Position numbers and translations under genes: made by a program. A model generated the notes under the pieces. That model saw only the letters and a program-made list of their open reading frames with translations. It had not been told where the DNA came from and did not search any database. Below, piece after piece: positions 2,887 through 13,526 of a stretch of DNA of 24,942 bases. The stretch comes from a virus: IMG/VR virus record IMGVR_UViG_3300029319_004764, positions 1 to 24,942 of that record, one strand, 5' to 3'. The first letter of the stretch is position 1. Every line of letters starts with the position of its first letter.

Positions 2887-3189
2887 TTATTCACCTTGCA
2901 CAAACATTCCCACAATATGATTCTCAAGAACAATCTCGTATTCTTCTCCGGCTACATTTACATTTTCAATCATGGTTCCATCGACAACAATTCTCGCCCC
3001 TTCCTGATAGAGAAGTTTATTATAAACACTATCCCTCTTGCAGTCGGTTGCAGTGGATTTTACAGTCGCTACAACATATTTGTCTTTAGGGACCACATAG
3101 CCCTCTGGCAAGAGGACCCCGGTATTTTCAGAGTCTTCTTGCTTCTGGGTCTGAATGAGCAGATGTCTATTTTGTGGTTTAAATCTCAT
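2887..3189 (-). CDS. GroES-like co-chaperonin (T4 gp31 analogue)
   Basis: This 100-residue protein has the length and layout of a GroES/gp31 co-chaperonin, the heptameric lid of the host GroEL chamber. In T4, gp31 replaces GroES to fold the major capsid protein. The N-terminal strand motif KPQNRHLLIQ is followed by a polar mobile loop (about 14-24) ending in the hydrophobic GVLLP that would dock on GroEL, then V-x-x-A-T-V, ARIVVDGTMI and a C-terminal GEEYEIVLENHIVGMF, which matches the usual GroES ending with an E-x-x-I/V-L. An AGGAGG site sits 6 nt before the ATG. The gene follows the GapR-like gene by 8 nt and is followed by a strong terminator, so the pair forms a short unit from the promoter at 3475-3502. 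Confidence 0.85.
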   Translation of the reverse strand: MRFKPQNRHLLIQTQKQEDSENTGVLLPEGYVVPKDKYVVATVKSTATDCKRDSVYNKLLYQEGARIVVDGTMIENVNVAGEEYEIVLENHIVGMFVQGE

Positions 3190-3511: not shown

Positions 3512-5380
3512 TTACTTAATTTCACATGCGCCCCCAGCGCAGGCGAGTTCGCCAGAAAGATCTGTGTTGTCCTCTATTTCAATAACCTTGGTTAGATCCA
3601 CCTCTTCCAAACTCTCTAACATGGCTTCGTAAGTCTCTTTAGAACAGTCTTCAAATGGTGCCTGCTTATAGGTCCCACCATCATACGGTAACACCGACAG
3701 CCCATTATAAACATTTCTATTTTCCCACATCCATTCGCCTACATCAGCCCACTCTGCTTCCTTGATTGAAACTGTAGCAGAAACATTATGGGTGTTTTGA
3801 CCATTTCTTGTCCCCGGCTTAACCCACTCATCGCTGATCTTTGCTACCCTTCGCAATAATTGTAGTGCACTCTCCGTTCTCATAATCGCTCCGTCTGGTG
3901 CTTTTTGGGGTACGGAGATTACCGCCGTGTCGTGAGGTCTGAAGTATTCATCCTCGACCATATCTGGGTGGTAGATAGACAGGTAAGTGTAAATCGCTTC
4001 ATTCTTTCCAACGCGGAGGCGTCGAATATAGTAATCATTATGCCATGCATGAATGCCGCTAGATGTCCCAAGGGTCAACGATGTAGTGCCTGCTGGTTTT
4101 ACAGTTGTAGTCCTTGCGGCTTTTTTCACTCCGATAAGCTTCGCAACTCTTTCATTTTCCATCATTACAACTTTAGAAGCTTCAGTGGTATTAAGATTTA
4201 AAATTTTACCAGAGGCAATGCCAGTCATGCTTACGCCAATGAGCGCCTCCTTCTCAGTAGTTCTTCTCCAAACATCGCGGAGATAATGGAAATCAGTGTA
4301 ACCAGCCTGAAGGGTTCCGATGAATGAGGCTGCTTTCACACGGCTATTTAATTCTCCTTGGCTATCGACATCGCTTACATTTACTTCTGTGAGATTGCAA
4401 AACTGATAGGGTCGTAGTGCTATTTCGCAACAAGGGTTGGTTCCCCAGTCTTTATCATTAGAGAAATAAAATCCCGGCTCACCGCTCCCTGACTCTTTTA
4501 CTCTCTCCCAAAGATCTTGGAAGTACTCTTTAGTAATTCTGTGGCGGAGGAGCACAACTGAGTTGTTTGCTCTACCTCGCTGTGGGGCTGTCTCCCACCA
4601 GTTGCCTGTCTTGGCAGCAATCATTTCGTTATCATCGGCAGAGAACAGAGAGATAAGAGCAGCGCGGCGGATGCCGCCAGCAAGAACTGCATCAGCGATG
4701 TGGCAGATCATATCATGGGCTTCAATTGTGGTGAGCTTATCTCCGTTTTCTTTAGCCTCAAACATGCCTTGGAGCTTTACAAGGCACTCTTTTAGCGGCT
4801 GCGGTCCCGGCGCTTTCCCTCCAGAGGTCACAAGCCTAGCCCCTTTTGGTCGAATATCTGAATAATCAAACCGTAGTTTAGAACCCCCCTTAAAATAAGA
4901 TTGCACCAAAGCCTTGACGGCATCAGCCCAGCCCTCAATAGAATCATTGACCAAAAATCGTCTGGTCCTCTTTGAGGCTGGTTTTTGGATTTCTGGTAGT
5001 TTCTCGACATGGTGTTTCTGTACGCTATAGCCTACCCCGGTGCCTCCCAGCAACAAAAACATAACCTCGCTAAATACTCGCCAATCATCAACAGGTGCGA
5101 AAGCACAATTATAAATACGATTCGGTGCCACCTCAATGGGCTTGCCCCCAAACTGCATTGAGCGCATAGAAGGTAAAACTTTTTTGTCATACACCATCTC
5201 ATAAGCAGATTCAATCTCCTCTGCCAAGTCTGGATAGCTCTTAATGTGCATTGCTTTGTTTCTATCTACAATCTCTGTCCATGTCTCCCTTCTTTCTTTT
5301 TCCTGTATGTATCTAGCATACTTCATGTGTACTGTGATATCCGACAGAATATCCCGTGCCACTTTGTCTTTGTCTGTCAT
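3512..5380 (-). CDS. nrdJ: Class II (adenosylcobalamin-dependent) ribonucleotide reductase, monomeric type
   Basis: This 622-residue enzyme reduces ribonucleotides to deoxyribonucleotides for phage DNA synthesis, using coenzyme B12 to generate the thiyl radical. The catalytic set is complete and has the spacing of the Lactobacillus monomeric enzyme: C92 (in YNCAF) and C328 (in FCNL) as the redox pair, the radical cysteine C317 with E319 and N315 in NPCCEI, and a C-terminal shuttle pair C614-x4-C619 in the last nine residues. GGTGVGYSV at 112-120 and PAGTTSLTLGTSSGIH at about 429-444 are typical of the family. It is about 120 residues shorter than the Lactobacillus enzyme. AAGGGG lies 8 nt before the ATG. 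Only 14 nt separate it from the helicase gene, so no cobalamin riboswitch fits. The host must supply or import B12. Confidence 0.95.
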   Translation of the reverse strand: MTDKDKVARDILSDITVHMKYARYIQEKERRETWTEIVDRNKAMHIKSYPDLAEEIESAYEMVYDKKVLPSMRSMQFGGKPIEVAPNRIYNCAFAPVDDWRVFSEVMFLLLGGTGVGYSVQKHHVEKLPEIQKPASKRTRRFLVNDSIEGWADAVKALVQSYFKGGSKLRFDYSDIRPKGARLVTSGGKAPGPQPLKECLVKLQGMFEAKENGDKLTTIEAHDMICHIADAVLAGGIRRAALISLFSADDNEMIAAKTGNWWETAPQRGRANNSVVLLRHRITKEYFQDLWERVKESGSGEPGFYFSNDKDWGTNPCCEIALRPYQFCNLTEVNVSDVDSQGELNSRVKAASFIGTLQAGYTDFHYLRDVWRRTTEKEALIGVSMTGIASGKILNLNTTEASKVVMMENERVAKLIGVKKAARTTTVKPAGTTSLTLGTSSGIHAWHNDYYIRRLRVGKNEAIYTYLSIYHPDMVEDEYFRPHDTAVISVPQKAPDGAIMRTESALQLLRRVAKISDEWVKPGTRNGQNTHNVSATVSIKEAEWADVGEWMWENRNVYNGLSVLPYDGGTYKQAPFEDCSKETYEAMLESLEEVDLTKVIEIEDNTDLSGELACAGGACEIK

Positions 5381-5394
5381 TCGTTTAACCCCTT

Positions 5395-6747
5395 TTAATT
5401 TTTAAATTCTTTATATATTTTGTTAATCTTGTCTGCTTGTCTTTTTGAATCCGGCTTTTCCACATCCTCTAGCTCACTCTCCAAGACCTCCAAACTGATA
5501 TTTGAAGTATCCATTCGAATAGGGAACGGTATTCCGTCTTTGCCGTTTCTGTTTTTAGCTACAAAAAATCTACCCGTGTTGTTCTTCTTGTCAGTTATGG
5601 TGCGTGATAAAGAGAAAATAAAATCAGCTACAAAGCACTTACTAAATGCTTCTGAGATTGATTCCATTGTGATTAGCTCTGCATTGAGACCGGAGCGATT
5701 TGTTTGAGATGCAGTCCAGACTGGACATTCGAATATTTGGGCAATCGCTCTCAACTCTTCATAGATTGACTCAAGATCATGCCTCTTCTCGCTGCCACGA
5801 GGTGCAGATACTGGCTTTAGCAAATCCCCGTAATCAACTATGATCATATCGATTGGAACACCCTGTTGTTTAAGTTTATCCAAATGCGCTCGTATGGTAT
5901 TTGTACTAGCGGATTTCGTTGGATACTCTTTAATTATAACATTCCCATTAATATCTTTAACCTTTTCGTAAATTTGTTCCTTAAGAGAAAACAAATCCTG
6001 TAGCTGTACTCCAGTTAGGCAACTGTCATATCTTTGACCGATTGTCGTATGGCACAGCTCCAAAGTGTAATGAATCACATTTAATCCTGCTTTTACCGCT
6101 TGTGCCCCAAGATGTACCAAAACCATAGATTTACCAGCCCCAGTTGGAGCAATGACAACACCAAGCTCTCCACTTCCCAAGCCTCCTTTACAGATATCGT
6201 CAACCCTTTCCCACCCAGTCGTGACTGGGTTTCTAGCCCTCAGAACATACCTGTCTTCAAAATCTTTTTTATAATCATATCCGTAATTGCTATCTGCGCC
6301 CAACTTAAGGGCGTCATTAATCACCGTACTGATTTCGTCAAAAGATGAATTATTCAAAAGTTTTACCGATTTCATCATCGCTTCTTTTAGCTTTTGCTTC
6401 TTACAAAAGTCTAAGGAAGTTTCCCTGACATAATCCGCATCCCTAATTATCTCAACATCGGTTATAGACCTCTTAAAATATTCAACAACCTGCTCTTTAA
6501 CAGCACTATCATCATCGGATATGTCAGATTTTATCAATGATCCCACAGCCTTCAGCGATGGGTGGACATCATATTTTTTTTTGTAATCATAAATTTTAGA
6601 AACTAAAACCTGTAGGTATTTTAGCTCCAAGAAGGATATGTCTAGAACTTCTCCTATCTGATCGCAAAAAGGTCTTTCCGTTATAATCAGATAAGCCAAC
6701 TTTTCTTGAAAGTCTTTCCCATATTTTGAAAAACTTGCTTGCTCCAT
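5395..6747 (-). CDS. Replicative DNA helicase, DnaB/T4 gp41 type
   Basis: This 450-residue protein is a hexameric 5'-3' helicase of the RecA-fold DnaB/gp41 family. The N-terminal ~170 residues are helical (primase- or loader-interacting region in relatives). The motor begins with GWERVDDICKGGLGSGELGV; Walker A is APTGAGKS at 200-207, the catalytic glutamate lies in YTLE (about 227-230), Walker B is MIIVDYGD at 301-308, and the sensor segment is TASQTNRSG at about 345-353. A charged tail follows. Its ATG overlaps the exonuclease stop by 1 nt (TAATG), which implies translational coupling. No primase gene is visible in the window, although DnaB-family helicases normally work with one. Confidence 0.92.
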   Translation of the reverse strand: MEQASFSKYGKDFQEKLAYLIITERPFCDQIGEVLDISFLELKYLQVLVSKIYDYKKKYDVHPSLKAVGSLIKSDISDDDSAVKEQVVEYFKRSITDVEIIRDADYVRETSLDFCKKQKLKEAMMKSVKLLNNSSFDEISTVINDALKLGADSNYGYDYKKDFEDRYVLRARNPVTTGWERVDDICKGGLGSGELGVVIAPTGAGKSMVLVHLGAQAVKAGLNVIHYTLELCHTTIGQRYDSCLTGVQLQDLFSLKEQIYEKVKDINGNVIIKEYPTKSASTNTIRAHLDKLKQQGVPIDMIIVDYGDLLKPVSAPRGSEKRHDLESIYEELRAIAQIFECPVWTASQTNRSGLNAELITMESISEAFSKCFVADFIFSLSRTITDKKNNTGRFFVAKNRNGKDGIPFPIRMDTSNISLEVLESELEDVEKPDSKRQADKINKIYKEFKN

Positions 6748-7718
6748 TAATTACCTTCCTTAGTCTGCACTACCATTTTTCGAAACTGGGCAAATAGATC
6801 GGCTAAATCATACGCGCCGAACCCGTCTATCATCATCATAGTTTGAACACCCGTCTTGTTAAACATTAGCTTCGGGTCTTTTAACATGCCCCTAATATAC
6901 TGTGCGCTTTGGGCTGAAATGTTTGGAACATACAACTGCATCATCTTGTAATTCTTTTCAATCAGTTCTCTTTTTTCTACCGTGTTCCTAAAGACCTTGA
7001 GTTTGCTGTCAACACCCTCGGCATACTCAACTAACTCTTGTATCGTGTACGATTTTTCCTCAGAAAGAAAAGGAAATCGCTTAGATACAGTCGCCAAACC
7101 CGCTCCGCCGATGCCGGGGAGGTTGTCACTCTTGTCACCTGCAATTGCTCTAGCAAGTGCGAAGTTTGTTGGGTGGATATCATACTGCTCTAGGATTCTT
7201 TTTTTGTTAAGAATCTCTTTCTGAATTGGTCTGTACAAGATAGTTGAGTCATCACACAACTGGATGAAGTCCTTATCAGAACTTAGGATGATTTTGTGGT
7301 ATTCAGACAGGGCTTGGGACTGAGAGACTAGAGCGATGATATCGTCAGCCTCCACATTTTCAACATAAGACTGCATGATTGGCATTTCATTTAGATACTC
7401 GATCAACCTTTGCTGTTGCCAGTTCTTGTTGTCTTCCTGTTCGCCAGCAGTCATATTGTGAATATCTCTATTAAGACGAACAGGTTTGCGACCGGCTTTA
7501 TAGTTCTTGTCTATAGACTTGCGCTTTTGAGATCCACCGTCCCACGCAACAAATATAAGGTCTGGGTTGATTGTTCTACAGACAGATTGTAGGGATTTGA
7601 TGAAGCCTTTTGTTCCCCCGATGGGTTGACCATTTGTAGACAGGCTTGGATCTACAATGTAGTTTCTCATGAAAAGATTAAGTGCGTCAATAAGTAATAC
7701 TCTTTTTTTACTCGTCAT
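6747..7718 (-). CDS. 5'-3' exonuclease / RNase H of the FEN family (T4 Rnh-like)
   Basis: This 323-residue flap endonuclease-type nuclease would remove RNA primers and 5' flaps from lagging-strand fragments. The metal-binding acids sit where expected: D11 (LLIDALN), D60 (FVAWDGG), E123/D125/D126 (VEADDIIA), D148 and D150 (SSDKDF), and D195/D198 in GDKSDNLPGIGG, which also begins the helix-hairpin-helix DNA-binding motif. Length is close to T4 RNase H (305 residues). It starts at an ATG overlapping the upstream 58-residue ORF by 11 nt and is coupled to the helicase through TAATG. With the helicase, reductase and the small ORF it forms one transcription unit from the promoter at 7937-7965. This matters because the polymerase in this phage lacks any nuclease domain. 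Confidence 0.92.
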   Translation of the reverse strand: MTSKKRVLLIDALNLFMRNYIVDPSLSTNGQPIGGTKGFIKSLQSVCRTINPDLIFVAWDGGSQKRKSIDKNYKAGRKPVRLNRDIHNMTAGEQEDNKNWQQQRLIEYLNEMPIMQSYVENVEADDIIALVSQSQALSEYHKIILSSDKDFIQLCDDSTILYRPIQKEILNKKRILEQYDIHPTNFALARAIAGDKSDNLPGIGGAGLATVSKRFPFLSEEKSYTIQELVEYAEGVDSKLKVFRNTVEKRELIEKNYKMMQLYVPNISAQSAQYIRGMLKDPKLMFNKTGVQTMMMIDGFGAYDLADLFAQFRKMVVQTKEGN

Positions 7719-7979: not shown

Positions 7980-8312
7980 TTAATGATAGTGAGTTATCCG
8001 GATTACCTTTCTTTTTCCGAGGTATAACCACGGGTCATAATGCCTGTGTTTGTACCTAATTGTGCGGAGTCTTGTTCTTTTTCGCCAAGCCCTATTGTGA
8101 CTATGATAGCTGCGATAGTGCCTATGGTGGCGGTGGGTCCGGTAGACTCTTCTATGTCGATGCGGGTGGTATTCAGATGTAGAAATTTCTAATTCTAAAT
8201 CCCCACCGTCAACATGAGTTACCGTAACAATATCACTATCATGCGCCAGAGCGCTGGGAATGGCTAACAGAAAAGACGCAACAAATGTTAATAAAGCAAT
8301 TTTATATTTCAT
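7980..8312 (-). CDS. Secreted His/Arg-rich protein
   Basis: This 110-residue protein begins with a clear signal peptide (MKYKIALLTFVASFLLAIPS, cleavage after ALA at residue 23). The mature 87 residues hold 15 histidines and many arginines, concentrated at 49-72 (for example HPHRHRR and HRHHRHYRSYHSH) and in the C-terminal tail ITHYH. AAGGAGA lies about 8 nt before the ATG. The composition suggests metal binding or binding to anionic surfaces such as lipopolysaccharide, DNA or peptidoglycan in the periplasm; none of this is shown by a named domain. The gene follows UvsX by 40 nt and ends at a terminator, so it closes the gp32-UvsX unit. I do not recognise a family. Confidence 0.78.
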   Translation of the reverse strand: MKYKIALLTFVASFLLAIPSALAHDSDIVTVTHVDGGDLELEISTSEYHPHRHRRVYRTHRHHRHYRSYHSHNRAWRKRTRLRTIRYKHRHYDPWLYLGKRKVIRITHYH

Positions 8313-8352: not shown

Positions 8353-9456
8353 TTATTCACCCTTTTCTTCATAAAAATCTTCAGCCTTGCCCAATCGTTG
8401 GTCAAACTTCTGAATGACTTCCTCGTCCATAACATCATAAACACGCTGCTTAAAGGCTGGGTCTGCCATCTTTTGTTCCCACTTAGAAGGCTGGAACTTC
8501 TCTACTTTGCCATCACCCATTTCCAAAGAATACCAAGCACCAGAGGAGGTCATATACTTTGAGCCTTTAATTGCCTCAAACAAACTTTGGTCATCCTGTA
8601 CACCAATGTCATCAGTGCCCCATAGAATCTTAAAGTTGCATTGGCGACCTTGGGTTCCGAACCTACTCTTCTCCAGCTTGACCTTAACCTCAGAGCCAAT
8701 ACGGAAACCACTTTCATCTGTGATGTAAGCAGCCTTAGCCTTGCGACCTGTCAGCCAGACACGCAAAGAATATGCGTAGATCATAGCCTTGCCACCGGGA
8801 GTGACATAAGGTGTGGTTAAAGCCTCTGCTGGTCTGTTGGTAATGTTAGTCTTCAACTGGTTAAGTACCAAGAATGTTGATTGACTATTGGCAATCGGAA
8901 CAGTCAACTTTGACATCCCTTTAGCCAAGATTCTTGCCTTTACTGCCATGGAAGACTGCGGATTAAAGTCTCCTTCCACATCGGATATAGCAGGTGTAAG
9001 AGCAAGAGAGTCCCAAATAAAAAGCATACGGTTTTCATTATTAGCCAAAAGGTCTTCAATAGTTTCCAGCACAAACTCAACAGACTGAGCTTGAACATAA
9101 AGTAGAGTACTGACATCACATCCTGCCTTTTCCAAGAACGCAGGATCAATGGCGGACTCAGAATCAAAATAGACTACATCAATACCTTTTTTCTGAGCGT
9201 TTGCTGCAACTTGTGCTGCCAAAAATGACTTACCTGTTGCTTCAAGACCTGCAATCTCCGTTACTTTGCCGACTGGAATACCAGCCAACTTTCCTTTACA
9301 AATAATAGAATCTAACCATCTAGACCCTGTGGGAATCCAATCCGTAACTTCGGTTGGATTTTCCTCATTTAGGTTGTGTGCCACAGTCATACCCGCTCGC
9401 TTGTTAATCAGCTTACGCATATCAGCCATGGACAATTTACCTGCTGCTTTTGCCAT
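8353..9456 (-). CDS. uvsX: UvsX-like RecA-family recombinase
   Basis: This 367-residue strand-exchange ATPase is of the RecA/UvsX family and is used for recombination-dependent replication and repair. The start at 9456 has AAAGGAG upstream; an extension to 9516 would run through the terminator at 9470-9500. Landmarks are ITGSRWLD-like PTGSRWLDSI at about 42-51, Walker A GLEATGKS at 70-77, YFDSESAID (catalytic glutamate) at about 96-104, Walker B LFIWDSLAL, the L2-like region with FLVLNQLKTN, and VTPGGKAMIYAYSLRVWL. The C-terminus is acidic (EDFYEEKGE). It lies between gp32 and the His/Arg-rich gene; an intrinsic terminator upstream suggests it is made by read-through at lower levels than gp32. 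Confidence 0.93.
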   Translation of the reverse strand: MAKAAGKLSMADMRKLINKRAGMTVAHNLNEENPTEVTDWIPTGSRWLDSIICKGKLAGIPVGKVTEIAGLEATGKSFLAAQVAANAQKKGIDVVYFDSESAIDPAFLEKAGCDVSTLLYVQAQSVEFVLETIEDLLANNENRMLFIWDSLALTPAISDVEGDFNPQSSMAVKARILAKGMSKLTVPIANSQSTFLVLNQLKTNITNRPAEALTTPYVTPGGKAMIYAYSLRVWLTGRKAKAAYITDESGFRIGSEVKVKLEKSRFGTQGRQCNFKILWGTDDIGVQDDQSLFEAIKGSKYMTSSGAWYSLEMGDGKVEKFQPSKWEQKMADPAFKQRVYDVMDEEVIQKFDQRLGKAEDFYEEKGE

Positions 9457-9505: not shown

Positions 9506-10249
9506 TCAACCAACAAGCTCTTGAAGCGCCGCCTCTACATCATTAGAAGGAGCATTATACTTACTAGTTTCACTTGAATTCTCCTCCGCGTCAAGGTCGG
9601 AGTTCATGGCTTCGTCCAAGATAGCGGCGACATCCCCTGTCGTTTTCCTCTCAAAGAGAGTATCAAAATCAGGGACATTATCAATTAGCTCCTGACAATC
9701 TGTATCGCCATCTTCACATAGTGGAGAAGATTTTCGCCGAGGGGTCACAGAGGTTCTCGGGTAAAGCTGACCGGGGTCCTTTGCATATTTTAAAACAAGG
9801 TCTACCCCGTCCTCGGCGTCCGTAATGTCTCCGAAGTCAGGATTCAACACAAGGCTCAAAAGCTCTTGATAAACTGTCTTGCTATACCCCCAGACTCGCA
9901 CACCCTCTTTTTCCTCTCCCCTTACCATAACTGGGGAGAAGAACCTTTGTCGAGCAAAAAGCTTTTTAGCCATGTTAATGCTTTCTGTGTCCCCTTGGTT
10001 GAAAAGCTTTGTTGCGAAGTCGCACACAGGGCACTCTTCACCAAAGTTTCTTTTTGGACACAGGAACCCGTTTTGCTTTCCGACATTATAGTGAAAGTGA
10101 AATTCCTTAAAAGGATCTCCATCTTCAGAGGGGAGAATACGAACTGTATGTTCTCCTTCCGTAATTTTCCAAAAGTCAGATTTGCCGCCCTTGCCATTGC
10201 CTTGGGCAGCCGCCAATTTTGCTTTCATTTTCTTAAGATCAATTCCCAT
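9506..10249 (-). CDS. Single-stranded DNA-binding protein, T4 gp32 type
   Basis: This 247-residue protein coats single-stranded DNA at the fork. The N-terminus is basic (LKKMKAKLAAAQ), as in the cooperative-binding arm of gp32. The zinc ligands match the gp32 pattern: H51-x12-C64-x8-C73-x2-C76 (HFHYNVGKQ, FLCPKRN, EECPVC), against H-x12-C-x9-C-x2-C in T4. The core has ARQRFFSPVMV and VWGYSKTVYQEL; the C-terminal ~60 residues are strongly acidic and end in EAALQELVG, the usual protein-interaction tail. AAAGGAG lies 6 nt before the ATG. It stands first behind a perfect-consensus promoter and directly before a strong terminator, consistent with very high expression. Confidence 0.92.
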   Translation of the reverse strand: MGIDLKKMKAKLAAAQGNGKGGKSDFWKITEGEHTVRILPSEDGDPFKEFHFHYNVGKQNGFLCPKRNFGEECPVCDFATKLFNQGDTESINMAKKLFARQRFFSPVMVRGEEKEGVRVWGYSKTVYQELLSLVLNPDFGDITDAEDGVDLVLKYAKDPGQLYPRTSVTPRRKSSPLCEDGDTDCQELIDNVPDFDTLFERKTTGDVAAILDEAMNSDLDAEENSSETSKYNAPSNDVEAALQELVG

Positions 10250-10319: not shown

Positions 10320-11162
10320 TTATTGCACTTGGCTGCTTCTTGCAACGAAATAGGCGTATTTTTGTTCGTAATTGGTGGGGAATATGCCATAAGATATATT
10401 CACATTTTCCATTTGTGGCTTTTCTAAAATTTGCTCTTTAATGCTGTTCAAAAGTTTCTTGTCAGTCTTCAACTCTTCTTCAGGAATTGCATAGTAATAT
10501 GACTTTTCCCCAAGATTATCTAAGTCAAAAAACGGGCTCTCCTCCCCTGTATCAGGATTTAGAATGCCAAAGGTTGCAATTCTGGAAGTTTCCTTTGGTT
10601 TAGAGAAAGTTCCGATGATTTTCTTTTGGTTCTTAAAAACATTAATCATGTGAATAGTAGATACCAAAACTTCATTTAAGAAATCATAGTAGCCCATGAT
10701 TGGAGCACCGTCTATGATTTTATCTAACAAAGCGTTATCAGCAATATACATGTTTTGAAAAACGCCGGATCGAGCGTACTCTTGCAGTACTTTGAAGCAA
10801 GTTCGCTCTTGCAAAGTCCTCAACTCAGACAACGAATTCAAATCTGGTCTGATGTACAAGATACTAACTTTTGTCTTCTTATGAAGATATTCTAAAATTC
10901 TTAGTGCGGCTCCAGATATAATTGATGCGCCTGACAACACAAACAAAGCTTCGCCTTCAATATTGTTAAATCTCCTAGACAAATCCGGCACAGCCTCTTC
11001 ATACTTTTCTGGGTGATCGCACTCGTCCAGCTCAATAAACCTAGAGTTGCCAATGTCTTCTGGTAGTTCCCAATCAATAGTATAACCATTATACTGTGGG
11101 TACTGCAAAAATTTATTTACAATGTTGTGCCCTACCGAGCCTAGTCCTACTATTGTATACAT
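10320..11162 (-). CDS. Divergent FtsZ/tubulin-like protein
   Basis: This 280-residue protein has several segments that line up in order with the FtsZ nucleotide-binding domain. IVGLGSVGHNIVNKF at 4-18 parallels the FtsZ V-x-G-x-G-G-x-G-x-N-x-V-N start. EALFVLSGASIISGAALRIL at 71-90 sits where FtsZ has A-G-x-GGGTGTG-AAP-V-V. Then come a strand (VSILYIRPDL, about 99-108), a helix (LRTLQERTCFKVLQEYA) and YIADNALLDKI at 129-139, parallel to the FtsZ IPNDRLLEI element. The tubulin signature G-G-x-T-G-T/S-G is degenerate, so GTP binding may be altered or lost. It is shorter than FtsZ and its C-terminal domain is not recognisable to me. AAGGAA precedes the ATG; the gene overlaps the polymerase gene by 13 nt. 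This is inference from motif order, not a database match; a Rossmann-type dehydrogenase is the main alternative for the N-terminus. Confidence 0.6.
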   Translation of the reverse strand: MYTIVGLGSVGHNIVNKFLQYPQYNGYTIDWELPEDIGNSRFIELDECDHPEKYEEAVPDLSRRFNNIEGEALFVLSGASIISGAALRILEYLHKKTKVSILYIRPDLNSLSELRTLQERTCFKVLQEYARSGVFQNMYIADNALLDKIIDGAPIMGYYDFLNEVLVSTIHMINVFKNQKKIIGTFSKPKETSRIATFGILNPDTGEESPFFDLDNLGEKSYYYAIPEEELKTDKKLLNSIKEQILEKPQMENVNISYGIFPTNYEQKYAYFVARSSQVQ

Positions 11163-12340
11163 AATTCCTTCATCTCTCCGAAGTTCTTTCCTGCCGACAC
11201 ATTTACTTTAAATGTGCCAAAGGGTGTATTTGAGAACTCTTTGACCAGCATGTTTATCACACTTAGGTCTTGTTTGTCAAGGTCTAAAACAATACTGTCA
11301 TGAATAATAAATGCGATGTTTGATTTTAAATCTCGCAGTGCCTCTTTTATCAAGAAAGCCCTGTCCATAATTAAATCACTACATGTGCTTTGAATAATAT
11401 AGTTTAGCGAGTGATACTCATCGCTTTCTATTTCTCTTTTGTAATAGTTTTTTACAGACTTACCATCCCAATATTCATTCATTACCTTCTTTCTGTCATA
11501 GTGCTTGTCCAAAGCTTTGTCTTTAGAATTAGGATTATAAAGCCACGAAAAGATATTCTTCTTTGCCTGCTCTCTTTCAATGCTGCCTTCGTACAAATTT
11601 TTGATATTCCAGTCGTGTATGTCCCCGTCTGGCTGTGGCATGCCGAGTAAACCTATCAGCACCCTTAGTTCAGCCGCATTGTAATCCAGTTCAACAAACA
11701 TATCGTTGTTTGGCTGAAGCACATTTCGAAACCTTTTGTCCATGGTAAGTATGGGGAATGAATTTCTTTTCGTAGTCAGCCTACCAGTCTTAGTGCCAAA
11801 GGGGTTGTAATTGATATAAGGCGACGCTGATTTAAATCTTTTGAAGAACTCTCTTGTTCTTGGATTCTCGTAAGATTCCTTAAGGGGCTCTAGGTTTACA
11901 TTCAATCTTTGATTAGATATTTCTGTGGTGATAGATACAATTTTCTGCTGTAGTTCGTAGTTGTCTGGTCTCTGGTATGTGTCAAACACATGCTGCGTAA
12001 TTTTGTTTTTTACCTCGCAGAAATCCTTTACAAATTGTTCTGGCAAAAGGTCAAAGAAGCAGTTCTGGTTTAGGTCTACCTTGGCAATCGCAAAAGATTT
12101 GTAGAATGCCTGCATTTTTTTCCAAGCCAAGTCAAATTCTTCTTGATGATGGGGTGGGCAGATCTCAGCCAATGTTTTACCCTTGGCGTATATCTCAGCA
12201 TACTCTATTTGATGATTTTCCAAAAACGACGAATATGCCCAAGTTTTGGTCAAATTGGAAGGAATATGATTATGTACCATATTTCCTTCTAAGTAAATGC
12301 CGACGCAGTATTCTTTATCATCTAATGCTTGAAATAACAA
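11150..12340 (-). CDS. Family A DNA polymerase, polymerase domain only
   Basis: This protein has 396 residues against about 600-930 for full PolA enzymes. Present are GTKTGRLTT (182-190), motif A DYNAAELR (209-216), the O-helix R246-x3-K250-x3-F254-x3-Y258, NYIIQSTCSDLI (303-314) and motif C IHDS (336-339), so the three carboxylate/O-helix centres are intact. The residue matching E. coli Phe762 is Phe. The usual Tyr-Gly end of the O-helix is Tyr-Asn. There is no 3'-5' or 5'-3' exonuclease domain; the first ~100 residues are not recognised. The longest frame begins at a TTG (12340) one base after the previous stop, without a clear Shine-Dalgarno. An internal ATG at 12280 has AAGGAA upstream and a TATAAT at 12341-12346 (weak -35) and is an alternative start. 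It would be the phage replicase. Confidence 0.9.
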   Translation of the reverse strand: MLFQALDDKEYCVGIYLEGNMVHNHIPSNLTKTWAYSSFLENHQIEYAEIYAKGKTLAEICPPHHQEEFDLAWKKMQAFYKSFAIAKVDLNQNCFFDLLPEQFVKDFCEVKNKITQHVFDTYQRPDNYELQQKIVSITTEISNQRLNVNLEPLKESYENPRTREFFKRFKSASPYINYNPFGTKTGRLTTKRNSFPILTMDKRFRNVLQPNNDMFVELDYNAAELRVLIGLLGMPQPDGDIHDWNIKNLYEGSIEREQAKKNIFSWLYNPNSKDKALDKHYDRKKVMNEYWDGKSVKNYYKREIESDEYHSLNYIIQSTCSDLIMDRAFLIKEALRDLKSNIAFIIHDSIVLDLDKQDLSVINMLVKEFSNTPFGTFKVNVSAGKNFGEMKELCIQ

Positions 12341-12341
12341 A

Positions 12342-13526
12342 TTATATCCATGTTAGTTGAGACTTTATCTTATCATTAACATAATCTAAAGCAGACTCAA
12401 AGTCAAGAAAATTATATATTTGCTCTACCTTCAGCATTTCACGAGATATTAGAGTATCGGCAACATTTTTTTGAGATTCATCTAATTTAATCTTATAATA
12501 CAGTTTGAGCCAGAATAAGTCGCTATAATCCTCACCATACTTTTCACTATCTACTTTCTTTCTTTCGACTGCAATCATGTTTGATTGACCATATTCCTGA
12601 CATTGGTAATTAGTGACTCTCTCCCCCTCTATTATGGCGATAGGAGAAATGGATGTATACGCAGAATACATTTGTTTAATGTAAACTTTTAAATTATCTA
12701 TGTCATACATGTATGTTTTAAAATAGCATGTATCAAAAACATTATCTATCGTTAAGTTATACTCGTTCATATATTTTTTCATGGCTGGGGAGTTTAAATT
12801 TGCCACGAGTCGAAAGGGGGCATTTCTATCGATCAAAAATCCATATTTTGCTGCCGCTAAAGTATAAAATTCAAAGTTTGGGCTCTGTATGTATTTGCTA
12901 ATTTTTGAAAAGCTTCTGGTGAAGCTCTCTTTTGAAGTTTCTACGCAAAGACCTGTTGAAGTTGGATTAAAATACTTTGACATTATTAAACCGCTTTTTG
13001 TTATCGGAATTTTTTGTGCAATACTTGGGTAAAAATCATTAAAAAATATTTTAATAAAATCATCTATATTTAATATTTTGTCTTCATTTTTTTTATATAA
13101 TAAATTTCCATTAATAAAAGTCTTGTACAGTTCATCTATTTTTTCATCATAAAAAACATGCGGGGATGACCAGCCTTCATGTGCGTCCCACTTATTAGTC
13201 AAAAATTTATCAGGGACTATTTTTGATCTTGCCTCAAGCCTTATGTAGTTTCTAAAATCCTCAAAAGCGTCAGCAACAAAATTCAAACACTGAACACTAA
13301 GATTGTTGTTAGTATTTATCTCCTTAAGATAAGATTCATTAACATTGACGGTGTTGTTTTTTCCATCTATTCTGCCATAATATACTTGCTTTCCCGCAAA
13401 AAAACTGTGAGAAACAACATCGCTGGGGTATGACTTGGTATACGCATCATTTACCGAAAAAGCATTTTTTGCATTTCCGGAGGTTTTTTCTTGAAAGCCA
13501 GCACCTTTTTGTTTCTTGTATGACAT
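12342..13526 (-). CDS. Unknown 394-residue protein between tail and replication modules
   Basis: I do not recognise this family. The protein is soluble-looking, rich in Asn, Lys, Tyr and Phe, without signal peptide or membrane segment. Its visible segments are FVADAFEDFRNYIRLEARSK (near residue 83), WSSPHVFYDEKIDELYKTF, TLAAAKYGFLIDRNAPFRL, and an aromatic-rich VFDTCYFKTYMYDIDNLKV. Nothing resembles a DEDD 3'-5' exonuclease, which rules it out as the missing proofreading domain as far as I can see. AGGAA lies before the ATG; it starts 9 nt after the hub gene and ends 1 nt before the polymerase frame. Immediate linkage to baseplate genes makes a virion (baseplate) protein the most natural guess. 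The coding sequence is more AT-rich than most of the window. Confidence 0.75.
   Translation of the reverse strand: MSYKKQKGAGFQEKTSGNAKNAFSVNDAYTKSYPSDVVSHSFFAGKQVYYGRIDGKNNTVNVNESYLKEINTNNNLSVQCLNFVADAFEDFRNYIRLEARSKIVPDKFLTNKWDAHEGWSSPHVFYDEKIDELYKTFINGNLLYKKNEDKILNIDDFIKIFFNDFYPSIAQKIPITKSGLIMSKYFNPTSTGLCVETSKESFTRSFSKISKYIQSPNFEFYTLAAAKYGFLIDRNAPFRLVANLNSPAMKKYMNEYNLTIDNVFDTCYFKTYMYDIDNLKVYIKQMYSAYTSISPIAIIEGERVTNYQCQEYGQSNMIAVERKKVDSEKYGEDYSDLFWLKLYYKIKLDESQKNVADTLISREMLKVEQIYNFLDFESALDYVNDKIKSQLTWI

Follow-up and report, generated by a model that had tools for sequence, protein, structure and literature searches.

A divergent protein family of the tubulin/FtsZ superfamily in the replication cassette of uncultured marine T4-superfamily phages

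A large clade of uncultured marine phages encodes a divergent and hitherto undescribed protein family of the tubulin/FtsZ superfamily, here called TUB. In these phages it forms part of the replication cassette as a core gene that occurs in single copy and is inherited vertically. The member described here lies in an IMG/VR virus record of 24,942 bases, which was analysed over its full length (the window). Its membership of the tubulin superfamily is close to certain. The superfamily itself is known, but as far as could be checked the TUB family, the state of its motifs and its universal place in the replication cassette are apparently undescribed. The literature searched, which covers few subscription journals and preprints, contained no tubulin of T4-superfamily or Far-T4 phages, and the Far-T4 literature examined does not mention tubulin. 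To our knowledge, the phage tubulins described to date, PhuZ and TubZ, are cytoskeletal proteins with an accessory role in jumbo or plasmid-like phages.

The gene and its genomic surroundings

The replication cassette of the window contains the following genes, all on the minus strand.

5395–6747 (−): DnaB-like replicative helicase (Pfam DnaB_C, 2.6e-19)
6747–7718 (−): 5'-3' exonuclease (Pfam, 3.6e-28)
8353–9456 (−): UvsX/RecA-like recombinase (phrog_97, 9.6e-56)
9506–10249 (−): gp32-like single-strand DNA-binding protein (SSB), downstream of TUB (Pfam gp32, 3.8e-14; phrog_1192, 7e-30)
10320–11162 (−): TUB, divergent tubulin/FtsZ-superfamily protein of 280 residues (AlphaFold2, Foldseek, profile-profile homology, dN/dS)
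11150–12340 (−): family A DNA polymerase (PolA), polymerase domain (Pfam DNA_pol_A, 4.5e-13), sharing 13 nt with the start of TUB

The overlap of the TUB and PolA frames described in the earlier note is confirmed: the PolA stop codon occupies 11150–11152 and the start codon of TUB is the ATG at 11162, so that 13 nt are common to both genes. A first scan of IMG/VR yielded 77 relatives with identities of 34–95%, and a profile scan extended the family to at least 550 confirmed IMG/VR candidates. The dN/dS ratio against close relatives is 0.03–0.06. Because of these relatives and this ratio, TUB is a genuine gene, not a chance reading frame, and is strongly constrained by purifying selection.

The order of the cassette is PolA, TUB, SSB, UvsX, 5'-3' exonuclease, DnaB and B12-type ribonucleotide reductase (RNR). 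Synteny was assessed in 127 loci that were fetched by their polymerase or SSB, not by TUB, and that contain both. TUB is present in every one of them, always on the same strand between PolA (upstream) and SSB. Furthermore, its identity tracks that of PolA, UvsX and DnaB across the loci (rho 0.82–0.84). A link to replication, considered plausible in the earlier note, is thus more firmly founded than could be seen from one stretch of DNA. The position of the gene, which demonstrates linkage and not function, suggests co-expression.

The Gp23 capsid protein is encoded on all eight and the gp21 protease on all six of the long contigs of the TUB clade (98–194 kb) in which they were assessed. Accordingly, these phages belong to the T4 superfamily; the carriers are uncultured marine phages with genomes of approximately 155–194 kb. 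A tubulin-family search of ten long-contig records returned only weak matches to the TUB genes themselves and no second tubulin. The term paralogue used in the earlier note is therefore abandoned. The only match in bacterial genome contigs is a PolA-TUB-SSB-UvsX piece in the chromosome of a WOR-3 metagenome-assembled genome (CP070664.1, locus L155, 2514–7870). Since N runs flank this phage piece within the bacterial sequence, it is best explained as an artefact of scaffolding or binning in the public genome, and a host link was rejected.

Several other genes of the window were recorded. The protein at 322–1188 (−) is a pyridoxal-phosphate enzyme (PALP, 6.6e-69), a cysteine synthase by sequence, and is likely an auxiliary metabolic gene. 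A GroES/Cpn10-like protein (2887–3189 (−), 7.9e-6) adjoins the B12-dependent RNR (3512–5380). Between UvsX and the exonuclease, at 7980–8312 (−), a small protein is encoded that seems to begin with a signal peptide and has a C-terminus extremely rich in His, Arg and Tyr. Directly upstream of PolA, a 394-residue protein (12342–13526 (−)) has no family match; it is found beside PolA in most loci and evolves fast (21–73% identity). One subgroup has a small KL[VI]RD[RK]IP protein with an acidic helical segment inserted between PolA and TUB (L041 4639–5004, L048 4018–4377, L064 4513–4821 and L146 7670–7996), which by eye looks like a MazG-type pyrophosphohydrolase.

The nearest cultured relatives are the group of Flavobacterium phage immuto. 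The cassette order is common to both clades (tail genes, PolA, slot, SSB, recombinase, exonuclease, DnaB, RNR), and T4-type Gp23 and gp21 are a further likeness of the TUB clade to the genome context of immuto and Far-T4 phages. In the immuto group, however, the slot between PolA and SSB holds an unrelated gene. Immuto itself and 80 IMG/VR relatives were inspected. The conserved slot gene gp002 (150 residues; L197 1346–1801 in NC_055915, and L356–L435) accompanies PolA and SSB in 77 of these 81 loci, the other four having no PolA in the fetched piece, and TUB is present in none of the 81. Because the cassette is shared and the slot genes are unrelated, TUB was either acquired in one of the two clades or lost from the other; gp002 is possibly its functional replacement. 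The idea that the two small slot genes of immuto, gp002 and gp003, represent a split tubulin was rejected: an hhalign E of 0.2 gives no sign of homology for gp002, and gp003 was assessed by eye and by its failure to match the family profile. A TUB homologue is not detectable in RM378, a cultured Far-T4 phage.

Predicted fold and distant homology

The AlphaFold2 model of TUB, built with 56 family members, has a pLDDT of 91.2 and a pTM of 0.91. The elements follow in the order S1-H1-S2-S3-H2-S4-[T4]-H4-S5-H5-S6-[T6]-H7 and are followed by a C-terminal domain; this succession of strands and helices is that of FtsZ. Foldseek returned 767 matches in the PDB at E≤1e-3, and the best 50 of these are FtsZ, TubZ and tubulin. 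The closest is FtsZ (1w58, E 9e-13), and alignments to FtsZ structures span almost the complete chain, with TM-scores, normalized by query length, as high as 0.76. TubZ (2xka) is among the best 50 with a TM-score of 0.71. In the viral fold library BFVD, the best matches are an uncultured-phage FtsZ (TM 0.79) and PhuZ-type proteins. A second model, calculated for a relative with 44% identity (L041), has a pLDDT of 92.0 and gives the same families in Foldseek.

Both models thus display the two-domain fold of tubulins with the GTPase half, the central H7 and the C-terminal domain. This agrees with the fold proposed in the earlier note, which had named a Rossmann or ThiF protein as the best structural match that would speak against it; Foldseek places FtsZ at the top instead. 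The description of the protein as reduced is appropriate for the loops, which are shortened, but not for the domains, both of which are retained in the model.

The sequence relationship is remote. The TUB protein of the window has no significant match in Pfam, PHROGs or PDB sequences, and tblastn of cultured phages with three TUB members gave no match at E≤1. A match to the PhuZ family was likewise absent from PHROGs and from the tblastn search, which included 141 PhuZ-bearing records; the homology to PhuZ is a distant one between profiles. PF00091 aligns with TUB members below threshold through the T1 region (best E 0.0065 per record, 12.4 bits).

Profile-profile comparison with hhalign, a check of the kind proposed in the earlier note, supports the homology. 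The TUB family scores 41.2 with FtsZ and 43.5 with PhuZ (E 2.5e-5 for the latter), and the first alignment with FtsZ is collinear over residues 1–280. Controls consisted of 100 column-shuffled versions each for FtsZ and PhuZ, plus reversed profiles. The shuffled scores have means of 16 (FtsZ) and 15 (PhuZ) and maxima of 25.3 and 23.2, respectively; PhuZ against FtsZ, the positive control, scores 67.8. The family therefore lies well above the shuffled and reversed controls, and the FtsZ-like order of motifs noticed earlier exceeds chance (41 and 43 versus maxima of 25 and 23).

An alternative assignment to the Rossmann NAD-binding proteins of the TrkA type, with a superficial likeness to tubulin, was considered since Pfam TrkA_N matches 20 of 56 TUB members (best 8.8e-6). 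In the members examined these matches span just 32–37 residues and all remain below the Pfam cut-off. With hhalign, TrkA aligns over 26 columns with a score of 23.8, within the shuffled noise, compared to 174 columns and a score of 45 for FtsZ. No Rossmann enzyme occurs among the best 50 PDB fold matches of either model. With short sub-threshold matches, no whole-domain match and a predicted tubulin fold, this assignment was rejected as extremely improbable.

The nucleotide-binding site

Conservation was calculated from a weighted alignment of 217 sequences (effective number 149 at 80%). The peptides on which the earlier note relied are all present in TUB: IVGLGSVGHNIVNKF at residues 4–18, EALFVLSGASIISGAALRIL at 71–90 and YIADNALLDKI at 139–149. 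The elements corresponding to the nucleotide site of FtsZ are listed below.

11124–11153 (−): T1-like loop, residues 4–13 (IVGLGSVGHN; family IIGLGxAGCN), from conservation; aligned to VIGVGGGGGN of FtsZ
11073–11075 (−): T2-like Asp, residue 30 (Asp in 93%), at the S2-T2 'NTD' region of FtsZ
10998–11009 (−): T3-like segment, residues 52–55 (EKYE), shorter than T3 of FtsZ and aligned near its NPE
10911–10934 (−): T4-like loop, residues 77–84 (SGASIISG; family consensus GxGx[IV]SG), from alignments; canonical signature absent
10734–10736 (−): T6-like Asn, residue 143 (YIADN; Asn in 95%), aligned to IPN of FtsZ
10632–10691 (−): core helix H7, residues 158–177, with the conserved N163 and HMxN (171–174); helix in the AlphaFold2 model

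In the T1-like loop Gly6 (99%), Leu7 (94%), Gly8 (100%) and Gly11 (97%) are conserved. Asp30 presumably corresponds to the T2 Asp of FtsZ at the level of the single residue. The T3-like segment retains Glu52 (94%), Tyr54 (96%) and Glu55 (90%, with Asp in a further 10%). In H7, Asn163 (96%), His171 (96%) and Asn174 (97%) are nearly invariant. The two asparagines expected to contact the guanine, Asn143 of T6 and Asn163 of H7 in the hhalign register, occur together in 96% of the 217 members.

The catalytic motifs, on the other hand, are not retained. The T4 signature (GG[GAS]TG[TSA]G or [SAG]GGTG[ST]G) is found in none of the 217 members, which bears out the missing G-rich loop of the earlier note. 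The T7 acid of the NxDxx[DE] motif has no equivalent: no position within residues 171–195 is acidic in more than 64% of the 217 members, and the pattern N.[DE]..[DE] occurs in two. The register of T7 differs between hhalign and the helix boundary of the AlphaFold2 model. Since the positions of the site are conserved and the canonical T4 and T7 motifs are absent, guanine recognition looks kept and the hydrolysis machinery eroded. With the T4 signature lacking in all 217 sequences and no conserved acid near T7, hydrolysis is doubtful.

The window's clade carries SGASIISG at T4 and NQKK near T7, whereas many relatives have GGSGxISG and NSEP; L041 and L063 are examples with GGSG and NSEP. Judged by these motifs, erosion has gone furthest in the window's clade. 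The T4 and T7 states do not divide the family cleanly into active and inactive subfamilies. The term degenerate is too strong for the protein: the Asn pair, T1 and the T2 Asp are retained, and the wider family keeps GxGx[IV]SG. A short C-terminal tail following a conserved VQ (SYKDLLDDQDIS or NNxFRLDKDLNL types) is present in 137 of the 217 members (e.g. L037 and L031) and absent from the window's protein; by analogy with FtsZ, it could be a binding peptide.

Relation to known tubulins and proposed role

FtsZ is the best PDB fold match and has T1, the T6 Asn and H7 in register with TUB. The two proteins differ in that TUB has an identity of only ~15% to FtsZ, lacks GGGTGTG and the NxDxxD of T7, has a shortened T3 region and is not surrounded by cell-division genes. 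TubZ, a partition tubulin of plasmids and phages, is longer (~400 versus 280 residues); TUB belongs to the replication cassette of phages whose head genes are of the T4 type. PhuZ of the nucleus-forming jumbo phages (Chimalliviridae) resembles TUB in being phage-encoded, in its length (~280–320 residues), in its tubulin fold and in its detectable profile homology. It is dispensable, as one third of Chimalliviridae have no PhuZ (PMC10299810), and PhuZ of phage RAY carries the T4 signature (PMC10299810). In 201phi2-1, PhuZ is encoded away from the annotated DNA polymerase (gp59 versus gp83), whereas TUB adjoins PolA. In contrast to PhuZ, TUB is universal in its clade, belongs to the replication cassette, lacks the T4 signature and occurs in T4-superfamily phages of ~155–194 kb. 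Two distinct FtsZ/tubulin representatives have been counted in jumbo phages (PMC7824862).

TUB probably acts in replication or in the organization of the replication site. A more specific reading, held with about even confidence, is that of a GTP-binding scaffold that forms filaments or oligomers and organizes the site of phage replication. Guanine nucleotide would be bound via T1, T2 and the asparagines of T6 and H7. Subunits would associate head-to-tail, giving short filaments or oligomers; produced together with polymerase and SSB, this scaffold would organize or position the phage genome as it replicates. Hydrolysis would probably be weak or missing, with the window's clade as the clearest case (SGASIISG, NQKK). 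Filament formation as such is about as likely as not.

The fixed place between PolA and SSB is also compatible with a pseudo-GTPase that does not polymerize. In that case the tubulin fold would serve in the replisome as an adaptor, monomeric or dimeric and dependent on nucleotide, that connects polymerase with SSB and recombinase. The eroded T4 loop and the unconserved T7 acid are in line with such an adaptor, and the strongly conserved, non-canonical Gln127, Arg131, Ser132, His171, Met172 and Asn174 may serve partner binding. However, the conserved positions are found both around the loops of the nucleotide face and at the end of H7 and the C-terminal strands, as would be expected of a preserved head-to-tail interface, and the adaptor is considered unlikely.

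Hydrolysis-driven dynamics in canonical tubulins requires both the T4 signature and the T7 acid. A dynamic cytomotive GTPase comparable to PhuZ or TubZ, with a catalytic residue that escapes recognition, would agree with PhuZ as the best profile match, with the acid found at position 180 in 64% of the members and with the conserved Glu52, Glu55 and Asp107. It is nevertheless highly improbable, as the canonical T4 loop is absent, T7 has no conserved acid and the window's clade lacks both. Phage inhibitors of FtsZ exist, and TUB might instead imitate FtsZ during host takeover, co-assembling with the host protein or capping it and so blocking cell division in infection; FtsZ is its nearest fold in the PDB, and a T7 region altered in this way would be consistent with capping. 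Host-takeover genes, however, are usually early, variable and patchy, while TUB is universal and syntenic in the replication cassette and diverges together with replication proteins, which points to replication. Together with the low identity to FtsZ, this makes a mimic improbable.

Every sampled member has TUB fixed between PolA and SSB, an arrangement suggesting that the DNA-copying machinery of these phages is assembled around a cytoskeleton-like protein of their own. It is conceivable, though rather speculative, that this lineage dropped hydrolysis-driven dynamics and that its tubulin, made alongside DNA polymerase and SSB, became an essential structural part of the phage replication factory. 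An invariant tubulin-superfamily protein of the core cassette would extend phage cytoskeletons to phages of ordinary size and create a direct connection between a tubulin and proteins of replication. TUB would also represent a deep branch that retained nucleotide recognition and lost the canonical catalytic motifs. The family opens the direct question whether a phage replisome depends on a tubulin.
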